Below, piece by piece: positions 15,585 to 21,674 of a DNA stretch of 64,000 bases. Position 1 is the stretch's first letter. Every line of letters starts with the position of its first letter. Source of the stretch: Amycolatopsis cihanbeyliensis (lineage in GTDB: Bacteria > Actinomycetota > Actinomycetes > Mycobacteriales > Pseudonocardiaceae). Both the position numbers and the translations under genes were made by a program. Location of the stretch: contig NZ_VFML01000001.1 of assembly GCF_006715045.1 (NCBI RefSeq), forward strand, positions 2,200,501 through 2,264,500, read 5' to 3'. The notes under the pieces are model-generated. The model saw only the letters and a program-made list of their open reading frames with translations, was not told where the DNA came from and did not search any database.

Positions 15585-16088
15585 TCAGCCGACCTGATGC
15601 AACCAGGTGACCGGGGCTCCGTCCCCGGCGTGCCGGAACGGCTCGAGCGCCTCGTCCCAGTTGGCTCCGAGCAGTTCGTCCAGCTTGTGCGCGAGTTGCT
15701 CGCCCGCCCTGCACTTGGCCACCAGCGTACGCAACTGGTCCTCGCCGACGACGATATCGCCGTTCGCGCTGGTGCGGCCGTGCCACAACCCCAGCCCCGG
15801 GGCATAGCAAAACCGCTCGCCGTCCACGCCCTGGCTCGGCTCCTCGGCTACCTCGAACCGAACCATCGGCCACGCCTTGAGCGCGGACGCGAGCTTGCCG
15901 CCGGTGCCCGCCGGACCCCGCCAGCCACATTCGGCACGCAGCTGCCCGGGGGCGGCCGGCTGGGCCGTCCAACGCAACTCAACTCGGCCACCAAGGGTGC
16001 CCGAGATAGCCCACTCGACGTGCGGACATACCGCAGACGGCGACGAGTGGACGTACACCACGCCACGGGTGTTACCACGGGTGCTCAC
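15585..16088 (-). CDS. DUF3145 family protein
   Basis: A 167-aa cytoplasmic protein of an actinobacteria-specific family of unknown function. Recognisable family segments are GVVYVHSSPSAVCPHVEWA, VRFEVAEEPSQG, ERFCYAPGLGLWHGRTSANGD and TWLHQVG at the end. The GTG start at 16088 has an excellent GGAGGT Shine-Dalgarno sequence 5 nt upstream. It is followed by the leaderless promoter of the next minus-strand gene. The 266 bp before it, up to the subtilase end, contain no evident gene. Confidence 0.85.
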   Translation of the reverse strand: MSTRGNTRGVVYVHSSPSAVCPHVEWAISGTLGGRVELRWTAQPAAPGQLRAECGWRGPAGTGGKLASALKAWPMVRFEVAEEPSQGVDGERFCYAPGLGLWHGRTSANGDIVVGEDQLRTLVAKCRAGEQLAHKLDELLGANWDEALEPFRHAGDGAPVTWLHQVG

Positions 16089-18023: not shown

Positions 18024-19328
18024 GTGCGGCTCATTCGCCTCGCGCCACAGCCAGCCACGGTCGCCGAGGACATCCGGGCGGCGCTGGCGTCCCTCGGTCA
18101 CGGCACGGGGGTGACCGGCGGGCTGGCCCTGGCCGGGGTCCGGCCACCGGAGCACAGCACCACCCTCGACGCGCTGGTCATCACCCCGAGGGGCGTGCTC
18201 ATCGTGATCGGCGTCGACCTTCCGGACCCGGCCATGCGGCTGGAGGCACCGCTACGCGGGCAGTGGAAGTCGGACGGCTGGCCGCTGGTGCGGGGCGGGG
18301 ACGCGGTGAACCCGGCGACCGAACCGCTCGCCACGGCCACGCGCGTCGCCGCGCGGATCCGGTCCGTGCAGGGCGATCTCACGGTAGGCACAATCCTGGC
18401 GGTCGGGCCGTTCGTGCAGGCCGTCGATCAGCCTGCCACCGACCTGACCGGCGACGTCCGCGTCGTCCATCCGACCGCGACGAGCATGCTCGCCGCCGTG
18501 GCCTCGCTCGCCACCGGCACGAACCCGATGTCCACCGGGCAGGTGCGGGCGCTGCTGCGGGCGCTCGCGCCCGGTGCCCCGGAAGTGCGCGAGCACGAGC
18601 TGCGCGCCGAGGGCTTCGTCGAGGCCCAACCGCCGGTACCGGCCGAACCCACCGGGCAACCGGTATCCACGCCGGTGGCACCCGCCGGCGCACCACCGGG
18701 CCCGACCGCGGCACCACCCGGGCCGCGCCCGGTCGCCCCATCCCGGAAACCGGCTGTGCGCTGGCTGCCCATCACGGCCATCGCGCTGCTGCTCGGCCTG
18801 CTGGTGACGGCCATCGTGCTGGCGGCGTCCGGGAAGGAGCCGACCGCCGAGCAACCGCCGCCGAGCAACCCGACCCCGGCACCACACACCGTGGACGGCA
18901 TCGACTTCGTGACCGTGGCGGCGACGGGCGAACCGGACTGCGCCCCGCACGCCACCGGGGACGTGCAGGCCAGGCTGTCCGAAACCGGGTGCGCAGGGCT
19001 GCGCAGGGGTAGCTTCACCGCGTCCGTGGAGGGCGGGAAGGCCGCCGTGTCGATCGCCGTCCTCCGTTTCGCCGAGCCGGAACGCGCGAGCGAACTGCGG
19101 AAGCTCTCCGACACCCCGGGCAGTGGCGCGATCCTCGATCTGGGCACGGCGAGCGACCGGTGGCCACAGCCGGCCCCGGACTTCGCGGGGTCGGCGTACG
19201 TGAGCCGGACCGAGGGGGCCACCCTGCGGCTGGTGCAGGTGAGCTGGATCGGCCGACCGTCCACGCCGGACGACCCCACGCTGGTCCGGACCGCGACCAC
19301 GGCGCTCACCGTCCCGTTACCGGGGTAG
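18024..19328 (+). CDS. Membrane protein with NERD-like N-terminal domain
   Basis: A 434-aa protein. Residues 1-190 resemble a nuclease-related NERD/restriction-type fold (ALVITPRGVLIVIGVD, DAVNPATEPLATATRVA), without a clear catalytic signature that I can verify. A Pro/Ala-rich linker at about 200-245 leads to one transmembrane helix at about 251-270 (ITAIALLLGLLVTAIVLAAS), and an external C-terminal domain (DFVTVAATGEPDCAP...) contains two Cys. The GTG start follows GGGGAGG. The topology places a cytoplasmic sensor or nuclease-like domain opposite a wall-facing domain. The gene is divergent from the subtilase, with no operon partner. The function is unknown. Confidence 0.6.
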   Translation: MRLIRLAPQPATVAEDIRAALASLGHGTGVTGGLALAGVRPPEHSTTLDALVITPRGVLIVIGVDLPDPAMRLEAPLRGQWKSDGWPLVRGGDAVNPATEPLATATRVAARIRSVQGDLTVGTILAVGPFVQAVDQPATDLTGDVRVVHPTATSMLAAVASLATGTNPMSTGQVRALLRALAPGAPEVREHELRAEGFVEAQPPVPAEPTGQPVSTPVAPAGAPPGPTAAPPGPRPVAPSRKPAVRWLPITAIALLLGLLVTAIVLAASGKEPTAEQPPPSNPTPAPHTVDGIDFVTVAATGEPDCAPHATGDVQARLSETGCAGLRRGSFTASVEGGKAAVSIAVLRFAEPERASELRKLSDTPGSGAILDLGTASDRWPQPAPDFAGSAYVSRTEGATLRLVQVSWIGRPSTPDDPTLVRTATTALTVPLPG

Positions 19329-19516
19329 CACAGGGCCGGACCCAGCGTAGCCGGACCGCGACCACAGACTGTCCATATCGGACAGATGTGCCCCGCAACC
19401 GATTCCGACCTCGAGGCGGTATCCTCACCAGGAACCGGAAAGTCGGCGATGCCGGGCAGTGAAGCCTTCGCCGCGCCGGCTACCCGGAGAATCCGATCGA
19501 GCGCGGGGAGGTCTTC

Positions 19517-20146
19517 ATGGCCCAGAACACGGCGGTCCATGTGCTGGACGATCTCACCGGCGAGCCTGCCGCCGAATCGGTGCGGTTCGCCCTGGACGGG
19601 ATCGACTATGAAATAGACCTGGCCGCGGACAATGCCGCCGACCTTCGCGACATGCTCGAGCGCTATGTTACGCGCGGGCGTCGCACCGGCGGGAGAAAGA
19701 GTACGCGACGGGTGAACCGGAAGGCTGCCACCTCGAAGGCTGCCACGCCGAAAGCCGCGGCCAAGAAGACGACGACCAGGAAAGAACCGGCGAAGAAAGC
19801 AGCGGCCACTACAGCGAAAACCACCAAAGAAAGCGCGAAATCCCGCACCAAGAAACCGGCCGCGACGAAGTCCGGAAGCGGGTCGAAGACCGCGGCGAAA
19901 GCGTCATCGACCAAGACAGCGTCGACCAGGACGACCGCCAGGAAGCCGGCCGCTTCGAAGTCGGCCAAGGCCGAGCCCAAGCAAAGCACCGGGAAGACGA
20001 GCGCGACACGGAAGTCGACTTCGAAACAGGCCACCCCCGCTTCGAAGTCCGGTTCGAAGACGGCCACCAAGGCCGCGTCGAAAGCGAAGACGACCCCGAG
20101 GGCGACCAGCAAGGTCCCCCCGGTCCTGTTCTCCGCCCCCGACTGA
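19517..20146 (+). CDS. Lsr2 N-terminal domain fused to histone-H1-like Lys/Ala tail
   Basis: A 209-aa protein. Residues 1-60 match the Lsr2 dimerisation/oligomerisation domain (VHVLDDLTGEPAAESVRFAL then DGIDYEIDLAADNAADLRDM and GRRTGGRK). The usual Lsr2 C-terminal DNA-binding domain, with its WARxxG and RGR AT-hook-like motif, is absent. Instead residues 51-209 form a low-complexity Lys/Ala/Thr/Ser tail with 31 Lys and 13 Arg against 3 Glu and 1 Asp (TSKAATPKAAAKKTTTRKEP, PAKKAAATTAKTTKES), like the tails of histone H1 or of HupB/HupS. It is probably a nucleoid-associated protein with non-sequence-specific binding. The tail uses AAA Lys codons more than neighbouring genes do. The gene stands alone and ends at a palindromic repeat. 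Confidence 0.85.
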   Translation: MAQNTAVHVLDDLTGEPAAESVRFALDGIDYEIDLAADNAADLRDMLERYVTRGRRTGGRKSTRRVNRKAATSKAATPKAAAKKTTTRKEPAKKAAATTAKTTKESAKSRTKKPAATKSGSGSKTAAKASSTKTASTRTTARKPAASKSAKAEPKQSTGKTSATRKSTSKQATPASKSGSKTATKAASKAKTTPRATSKVPPVLFSAPD

Positions 20147-20153
20147 CGCATGC

Positions 20154-20274
20154 GAACGGCCAACTCGCCTACCGGAACGGCAAACTCGCCTACGTGAGCG
20201 GCAAACTCGGTCAAGCGCCGAGTTTGCCGTCTGGGTAGGCGAGTTTGCTATCCATGTAGGCGAGTTGGCCGTTC
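20154..20274. repeat. Palindromic repeat array at convergent gene ends (locus A)
   Basis: Three tandem units of the form GAACGGCMAACTCGCCTAC run forward and three run inverted. The outermost pair (20154-20172 and 20256-20274) is perfectly complementary over 19 bp, and the inner units pair imperfectly. The array fills the gap between the Lsr2-like gene and pntB, and includes the first base of the pntB stop codon. Related units occur near 41.0 kb. It probably works as a bidirectional terminator or a dispersed intergenic repeat. Confidence 0.85.
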
Positions 20275-21674
20275 TACAGGGCTTTCAGTTCCTCGACGAT
20301 CCCGCCGATCGAGGATTTCGCGTCGCCGAACAGCATGCTCGTCTTGGGATCGAAGAAAAGGTCGTTATCGATACCGGCGAAACCGGATCCCATCGATCGT
20401 TTCAGTACGATCACCGAGCGGCTGGAGTTCACCTTGAGGATCGGCATCCCGTAGATGGGTGAGGAGGGGTCGGTCTCGGCTGCGGGATTGGTCACATCGT
20501 TGGCACCGATCACCAGCGTGACATCGGTGTGGCCGAACTCCGAGTTGCTCTCGTCCATCTCCTTGAGCTGCGCGTAGGGCACATCGGCCTCGGCGAGCAA
20601 CACGTTCATGTGCCCCGGCATCCGGCCCGCGACCGGGTGGATCGCGTAGGAGACCGCGATGCCCTTGCCCTCGAGTATCTCGGCCATCTCGCGAACCGCG
20701 TGCTGCGCCTGCGCGACGGCCATCCCGTACCCGGGCACCACCGCGACCTTCCCGGCGTAGGCGAGCTGGATCGCGGTATCCGCCGCGCTCGTGCTGCGCA
20801 CCGACCGATCGACGTCGGGCCGGTCGCTCGCGGCCGCGGCGCCACCACCGAACCCGCCCCCGACGATCGCCGGGATCGATCGGTTCATCGCCTTGGCCAT
20901 CAGGTTGGTCAGGATCGAACCCGAGGCACCCACGATCATGCCCGCCACGATCAGCGCCGTGTTGTCCAGCGCGAGACCCATGGCGGCGGCCGAGAGTCCG
21001 GTGAGCGCGTTGAGCAGGGAAATCACCACGGGCATGTCGGCGCCGCCGATCGGCAGCACCACCATCACCCCGAAGGCGGCCGCGGCCACCAGCACCCCGA
21101 TGATCAGCCACTCGGACTGGCCACCCGCGGCGATCACCACGGAACACACCACGGCGGCGAGCAGCACCACCACGTTCAGCGGCTGCTGCAACCGTCCCAC
21201 GGTGATCGGCTTGGTCGGCAGAATCTCCTGCAACTTGCCGAAGGCGACGTTGGAGCCCCAGAACGACACCGAACCGACGATGACCGCGAACAGGGAGGCG
21301 ATCGCCACGTGGACGGGCTCGTGCGTGTAGCCGTCCGTGGTGCGGAACTCCACCCAGCCGATGATCGCCACCGTGCCACCGCCGACACCGTTGAACAGCG
21401 CCACCATCTGCGGCATCGCGGTCATCTTCACCTTGCGCGCCGCCGGTACGCCGATCACGGTGCCGAGCAGGACGCCGAGCGCGATCAGCAGCCAGTTGCT
21501 CATCCCCGGCATCAACAGGGTGGCCACGATCGCGATACCCATCCCGACGGCGGCGATCCAGTTGCCGCGCACCGCGGTCCGCGGGCCGGTCATCCCCATC
21601 AAGCCGTAGATGAACATCGCGAAGGCGATGATGTAGAGCACGCCGACGAAACTCTCGCTCTGCAGCCAGCTCAT
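20274..21674 (-). CDS. pntB: NAD(P) transhydrogenase subunit beta
   Basis: A 466-aa subunit. Residues 1-260 hold about eight to nine transmembrane helices of the proton channel (VLYIIAFAMFIYGLMGM, NWIAAVGMGIAIVATLLMP), and residues 290-466 hold the NADP(H)-binding domain (VAVVPGYGMAVAQAQHAV, IHPVAGRMPGHMNVLLAEA, VIGANDVTNPAAETDPSSPI, KRSMGSGFAGIDNDLFFDP). It couples proton flow to hydride transfer from NADH to NADP+. Its ATG overlaps the pntAb stop. It is the last gene of the operon. Confidence 0.96.
   Translation of the reverse strand: MSWLQSESFVGVLYIIAFAMFIYGLMGMTGPRTAVRGNWIAAVGMGIAIVATLLMPGMSNWLLIALGVLLGTVIGVPAARKVKMTAMPQMVALFNGVGGGTVAIIGWVEFRTTDGYTHEPVHVAIASLFAVIVGSVSFWGSNVAFGKLQEILPTKPITVGRLQQPLNVVVLLAAVVCSVVIAAGGQSEWLIIGVLVAAAAFGVMVVLPIGGADMPVVISLLNALTGLSAAAMGLALDNTALIVAGMIVGASGSILTNLMAKAMNRSIPAIVGGGFGGGAAAASDRPDVDRSVRSTSAADTAIQLAYAGKVAVVPGYGMAVAQAQHAVREMAEILEGKGIAVSYAIHPVAGRMPGHMNVLLAEADVPYAQLKEMDESNSEFGHTDVTLVIGANDVTNPAAETDPSSPIYGMPILKVNSSRSVIVLKRSMGSGFAGIDNDLFFDPKTSMLFGDAKSSIGGIVEELKAL

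Follow-up and report, generated by a model that had tools for sequence, protein, structure and literature searches.

The window analysed here, a stretch of 64,000 nucleotides from contig NZ_VFML01000001.1 of Amycolatopsis cihanbeyliensis, contains a gene for a 209-residue protein in which the Lsr2 dimerisation domain is followed by a long basic tail and a short C-terminal peptide. The gene lies between a conserved upstream gene of unassigned function and the convergent gene for the β-subunit of NAD(P) transhydrogenase. The features of the locus are as follows.

15585..16088, − strand: DUF3145 gene, a marker of the locus (PF11343, E 4.2e-75; at 34 of 36 tailed loci from named genomes)
18024..19328, + strand: upstream neighbour, a 434-residue protein without an assigned function (at 35 of the 36 loci)
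19505..19511, + strand: likely ribosome-binding site GGGGAGG, read from the sequence
19517..20146, + strand: tailed Lsr2 gene, an open reading frame for 209 residues with an ATG start (69 distinct genome-derived relatives of the same architecture)
19517..19690, + strand: Lsr2 dimerisation domain, residues 1–58 (PF11774, E 8.5e-23; PDB entry 4e1p, E 6.2e-11)
19676..19699, + strand: basic hinge GRRTGGRK, residues 54–61, common to canonical Lsr2
19700..20110, + strand: disordered Lys/Ala/Thr/Ser tail, residues 62–198, from its composition and an AF2 pLDDT of about 50 over most of its length
20111..20143, + strand: C-terminal peptide KVPPVLFSAPD, residues 199–209, with the motif P-x-[V/I]-x-F-S, which is kept in relatives
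20274..21674, − strand: convergent downstream neighbour, NAD(P) transhydrogenase β-subunit PntB (PF02233, E 4e-174; at 28 of the 36 loci)

The 434-residue upstream protein matched no Pfam family at an E value of 0.001. The tailed lsr2 and pntB genes converge, and an inverted repeat made of 21-nt units lies between them at positions 20154–20274, with 57-nt arms that are 82% complementary and a 7-nt loop. The 15-mer GGCAAACTCGCCTAC of this repeat has 24 copies in the genome, compared with one for the reversed control; the inverted repeat is a dispersed palindromic repeat, and it perhaps acts as a terminator.

Domain composition

The reading of residues 1–60 as the Lsr2 oligomerisation domain, made in the first-pass annotation of this DNA, was confirmed. 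PF11774 covers residues 1–58 over its whole profile with 80.2 bits against a curated cut-off of 29.6, so that the N-terminal similarity, whose lack of significance would have counted against the reading, is strong, and a phmmer search of the PDB matched residues 1–60 to the solved Lsr2 dimerisation domain (4e1p). The hinge residues R55, R56, G58, G59 and R60 are invariant in an alignment of 30 members. The usual Lsr2 DNA-binding domain, PF23359 with its RGR-type AT-hook-like segment, is missing, as had also been stated, and was not reported for the 209-residue protein up to an E value of 1. When the genome was searched in all six frames, with 150 of the 202 initial candidates scored, PF23359 appeared at four positions, all inside four canonical Lsr2 genes. 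Over the tail, it was likewise not found in five of the 19 stop-to-stop frames, which represent the two remaining forward frames and three antisense stretches; the search for a frameshifted DNA-binding domain, which had been considered from the outset, thus yielded none. The sole Pfam match in the alternative frames over the tail was a sub-threshold DUF1918 hit (18.1 bits against 24). The GC-rich, low-complexity DNA leaves several frames open, and a 183-residue antisense reading frame overlaps the tailed gene.

Matches of the tail to H1-like profiles fell below the curated cut-offs, with 19.1 bits against 40 for HC2, the bacterial H1-like family of Pfam, and 20.2 bits against 80 for NF038053 of NCBIfam. 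Judged from the sequence, the H1-like resemblance of the tail is one of composition only. An HU domain is absent, with Pfam up to an E value of 1 giving only Lsr2 and the sub-threshold HC2 match. The protein belongs to the family defined by PF11774 and lacks the C-terminal PF23359 domain that marks a canonical silencer; by analogy with a separate family, it is H-NST-like in having a self-association domain without a DNA-binding domain.

AF2 modelled the window protein as a monomer with a pTM of 0.21, recovering the expected strands and helix with modest confidence and leaving the tail disordered, and the best Foldseek matches of this model were the two chains of 4e1p, with E values of 0.07 and 0.09 and none at 0.001. 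The AF2 monomer of a relative with 120 residues (L018) gave a pTM of 0.23. A strand of the C-terminal motif docked on the N-terminal domain was not seen in these two low-confidence monomers. The confidence at the C-terminal end was 63 and 76 in the window protein, compared with about 50 in its tail, and 70 in L018, values that could arise from conservation alone.

Distribution and gene neighbourhood

Taken at first for a single odd protein, the tailed form instead represents a conserved family found across several genera. Many proteins with PF11774, a tail and no C-terminal Lsr2 domain were found, as the first-pass annotation had suggested looking for: a search of 5.8 billion proteins gave 181 relatives, and among the best 120 of these 181, which were examined, P0001–P0092 have PF11774 without PF23359 and P0093–P0120 have both. 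A scan of named genomes gave at least 80 Lsr2 loci; among the matches listed, 36 are tailed and 44 canonical, the latter class being assigned by a regular expression for 34 loci and by eye for ten. The 36 tailed loci come from Amycolatopsis, Prauserella, Saccharomonospora and Qaidamihabitans. A profile built on the tailed form, which could miss members with very divergent tails or with quite another type of tail, detected the architecture in 44 of 200 sampled genomes of the family and in nine of its 46 sampled genera. These 44 genomes, counted by hand, scored at least 107.2 bits, and all 44 proteins were read and are tailed; the next lower match scored 106.7 bits, and the seven lower matches that were read (L191 and L210–L215) are all canonical. 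No further match in 296 genomes of the class reached the tailed range, the best outside the source genome scoring 104.9 bits.

Within the genera, the tailed form was present in 11 of 11 genomes of the genus of the window (g1), 10 of 10 in g26, four of four in g15, seven of ten in g24, six of seven in g33, two of two each in g20 and g44, and one of one each in g41 and g10. Since it is absent from three of the ten g24 genomes and one of the seven g33 genomes, the tailed gene is dispensable. In a g24 genome (G024, locus L134), no Lsr2 separates the upstream gene from PntAB, both of which are present; this is probably a loss of the tailed gene. The tailed protein of one locus in the genus of the window (L088) is identical to that of Amycolatopsis saalfeldensis (L026). 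Lsr2 of actinobacterial type is also encoded at L038 and L049, in entries labelled Vibrio cholerae strain 35D and Tissierella sp.; these assemblies are probably contaminated or mislabelled.

The surroundings of the gene are conserved as well. Across the 36 named tailed loci, taken as regions of 10.2–20.6 kb each, the 434-residue upstream protein and DUF3145 (35 and 34 loci) are accompanied by PntB and PntA at 28 loci each, an oxidoreductase and a desaturase at 24 each and a subtilase at 13, with some of the absences being due to contig ends. The shared neighbours, together with the presence of the gene in all 11 genomes of the genus, therefore point to vertical inheritance. In two Prauserella-type loci (L098 and L102), a frame upstream of lsr2, lying on the reverse strand on which the antisense of lsr2 is also read, encodes by eye a protein resembling an FAD-type disulfide oxidoreductase; the window has no such oxidoreductase-like gene between the 434-residue gene and lsr2.

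The matching region was taken from 40 of the 45 other genera, one of these regions being only 2.5 kb. Six of them, including that of L134, have the upstream gene adjoining PntAB with no Lsr2 between (L118, L129, L134, L143, L145 and L155), in three genera the upstream gene is followed by a canonical Lsr2 (L136, L138 and L139), in two cases before PntB, and four regions have the tailed form (L151–L154); in the remaining 27, neither the arrangement of upstream gene and PntAB nor an Lsr2 match was seen. In trees built from 61 N-terminal columns, the tailed proteins group together with weak support (51 in the quick tree), and the freely searched careful tree placed one canonical row among the 27 tailed rows. 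In the 61-column tree, descent of the tailed form from the canonical Lsr2 at the same place was neither supported nor rejected (p-AU 0.306), and a single origin of the 27 tailed rows was not rejected (p-AU 0.629). P0198, which has an Ala/Lys-rich extension after the DNA-binding domain and ends in APSVNFK, was considered as an intermediate and given little weight, since its last 61 residues retrieved only P0198 itself when used as a query.

Tail and C-terminal motif

From residue 61 onward, the protein consists of 21% Lys, 22% Ala, 19% Thr and 15% Ser, with 31 Lys, nine Arg and four acidic residues. The earlier counts of Lys and acidic residues were reproduced, whereas the 13 Arg reported with them would require a slightly earlier boundary (12 Arg from residue 55 onward). 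The Lys/Ala/Thr/Ser repeats described in the first-pass annotation hold as to composition and low complexity, but there is no clean tandem repeat. The net charge is −8 for the domain and +39 after residue 54, compared with family medians of −7 for residues 1–54 and +44 for the remainder, while the medians of 45 canonical Lsr2 proteins are −10 for the N-terminal part and +9 for the remainder. The tailed protein can be regarded as an exaggerated form of the Lsr2 pattern of an acidic domain and a basic part. Since the tails of some Saccharomonospora-type members are Lys-poor, with L022 having no Lys and a net charge of +10, the strong polycation is not universal.

The AAA-rich codon use noted for the tail does differ from that of its neighbours (ten of the 31 Lys codons are AAA, while 11 neighbouring genes use it for 11 of their 86; p 0.027, Fisher test), but the difference is weak and AAA accounts for only about 14% of the tail Lys codons (146/1033) in the 36 named relatives. 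A foreign origin, considered on account of these codons, was rejected, the signal being weak and contradicted by synteny.

The earlier reading overlooked the C-terminal motif P-x-[V/I]-x-F-S, and an account of the tail as a plain polycation is thereby incomplete. The motif stands at the end of all 69 distinct genome-derived members, compared with one match in 13,800 shuffled tails, and of 155 of 156 distinct members, the exception (P0031) looking truncated. Its Phe is the only aromatic residue of the tail in 66 of the 69 genome-derived members. The tail between hinge and motif ranges from 50 to 333 residues in the 149 of 156 members measured, seven in which the hinge pattern was unmatched being left out. 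Members with Lys-poor tails (L022, L099, L198 and L205) retain the motif while the tails vary, so that selection seems to act on charge in the tail and on sequence at the end. In the source genome, a DNA pattern for the motif was found at five places, compared with three for the reversed control, and only two of them are within ten codons of a stop, the one in the window and L217, whose open frame has about 15 codons. The V-x-F-S portion resembles the TVxF strand of the N-terminal domain, which we mention as an idea only.

PF11774 was found at five places in the genome, the tailed gene and four others, all four with PF23359, which answers the earlier question of whether a canonical Lsr2 exists beside the tailed form. 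Two of these four (L003 and L004) extend past the DNA-binding domain, and L003 ends in RRRGGRKKKASA. Endings similar to the motif of the tailed form also follow the DNA-binding domain in Actinomadura/Actinoallomurus-type Lsr2 (L052 and P0121–P0158), which are KVPQTKFQ-like, and the Actinomadura protein L052 ends in DIPQVTFQPG; the likeness is one of short endings only, and these proteins differ from the tailed form in keeping the DNA-binding domain and having no long Lys tail. We know of no described function for such endings of canonical Lsr2. Among the matches listed, 76 of 148 canonical proteins have an extension of at least 12 residues, and P-x-x-x-F-[SQKN] occurs within the last 20 residues in 36 of these 76, compared with 1.4 in shuffles, the proteins with the motif forming closely related groups rather than independent draws. 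Another canonical group ends in FSG without Pro, and others have neither ending. Inspection by eye also showed four Lsr2-type proteins (P0164, P0179, P0201 and L212) with apparently two DNA-binding-like segments, RGR and then RGQ, and one protein on a 621-base contig (P0159) with two tandem Lsr2 N-terminal domains before one DNA-binding domain.

Discussion

As reported for Lsr2, dimers form chains through their N-terminal strands after the loss of three residues (PMC3374832, from the available part of the paper), and H-NS-type proteins including Lsr2 are described as having an acidic N-terminal domain and a basic linker, with a second Lsr2 of M. smegmatis having a longer basic linker and a retained DNA-binding motif (PMC6936261, accessible portions). 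The tailed form shares with canonical Lsr2 the conserved residues of the dimerisation domain, the GRR.GGRK hinge and the order of acidic domain and basic part, but differs in lacking the DNA-binding domain and in having a tail of 50–333 residues and the C-terminal motif. The reading that we favour, to which we give about an even chance, is that of an Lsr2 paralogue passed down vertically within the Amycolatopsis/Prauserella/Saccharomonospora lineage, which would dimerise, bind DNA non-specifically by its tail and use the C-terminal peptide as a contact. Dimerisation would take place through the N-terminal domain, perhaps with chains as in Lsr2, and the several tails of an assembly would bind the backbone of DNA irrespective of sequence, like the tails of H1 or HupB. 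The acidic domain (−8) and the basic tail (+39) might make this binding salt-tunable, and the C-terminal peptide, usually the only aromatic site of the tail, could be the contact for a partner or for another Lsr2-type subunit. The tailed protein may also mix with the canonical Lsr2 proteins of the same cell and take their filaments to DNA that is not AT-rich. The proposal of the first-pass annotation, oligomerisation through the Lsr2 interface with general compaction of DNA, is plausible by analogy. A parallel, according to the part of PMC5676037 that is available, is mycobacterial HupB, in which a folded nucleoid-protein domain is likewise followed by a Lys/Ala-rich H1-like tail, although the N-terminal domain is HU in HupB and Lsr2-type in the tailed protein.

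The same architecture might instead serve to weaken silencing: the protein would form mixed dimers with canonical Lsr2 and impair its silencing, as H-NST impairs that of H-NS, with the tail only an anchor to the nucleoid. The Lsr2 dimerisation domain is kept and the DNA-binding domain is absent, canonical Lsr2 is encoded in the same genome, and all 44 tailed genomes have at least two PF11774 matches; simple poisoning, however, needs neither a long selected polycation nor an invariant C-terminal peptide, and we consider an anti-silencer rather unlikely. H-NST, a truncated H-NS, is similar in being a self-association part without a DNA-binding domain, but it has another fold and family and is also without an oligomerisation site, and no H1-like tail is reported for it in the available sections of PMC6936261 and PMC8612146. 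It is less likely still that the tail binds polyphosphate or RNA instead of DNA. This possibility draws on the resemblance in composition to the long, disordered Lys/Pro/Ala tail of AlgP, an H1-like protein of Pseudomonas that is associated with polyphosphate granules (PMC9239181, available part), but the N-terminal domain is from a DNA-bridging family, and AlgP, which has KPAA tandem repeats and is not of Lsr2 type, binds DNA with its own tail as well (same source and part).

From the several open frames over the tail, the 183-residue antisense one included, it might be suspected that the protein is a degenerate canonical Lsr2 whose DNA-binding domain gave way, by frameshift or drift, to meaningless low-complexity sequence. 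We reject this as extremely improbable: among the 150 of 202 initial candidates scored, PF23359 is confined to the four canonical genes, it is absent from the tail frames tested, the other forward ones among them, 69 distinct proteins keep the same frame and ending, and the gene neighbours are shared among the tailed loci. A bolder extension of the favoured paralogue reading, offered as a speculation with a small chance of being correct, is that a silencer selective for AT-rich DNA became, in this lineage, a protein like a linker histone, in which the Lsr2 dimer has a generic H1-like tail with a docking peptide as its cap. The peptide would be an old contact motif of the Lsr2 family, present also behind the DNA-binding domain of some canonical Lsr2 proteins, and would let the tailed subunit join Lsr2 filaments or engage a partner common to both; canonical Lsr2 would then be the reader and the tailed form the linker of a two-part, heterochromatin-like system.

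In conclusion, no description of an architecture joining the Lsr2 domain to an H1-like tail was found among the listed titles and abstract openings of the literature searches, subscription papers apart. Database records already label such proteins 'Lsr2 dimerization domain-containing protein', and the tailed class is visible in databases but, as far as the literature searches show, unstudied. The silent antibiotic clusters of Amycolatopsis and its relatives are of practical interest. Lsr2 is reported to silence horizontally acquired genes and many specialised-metabolite clusters of Streptomyces (PMC7002338 and PMC6584129, available parts). The tailed paralogue parts self-association from AT recognition, which are joined in canonical Lsr2, so that the two are separately testable in a natural protein, and its invariant C-terminal peptide gives the search for a binding partner a specific starting point.
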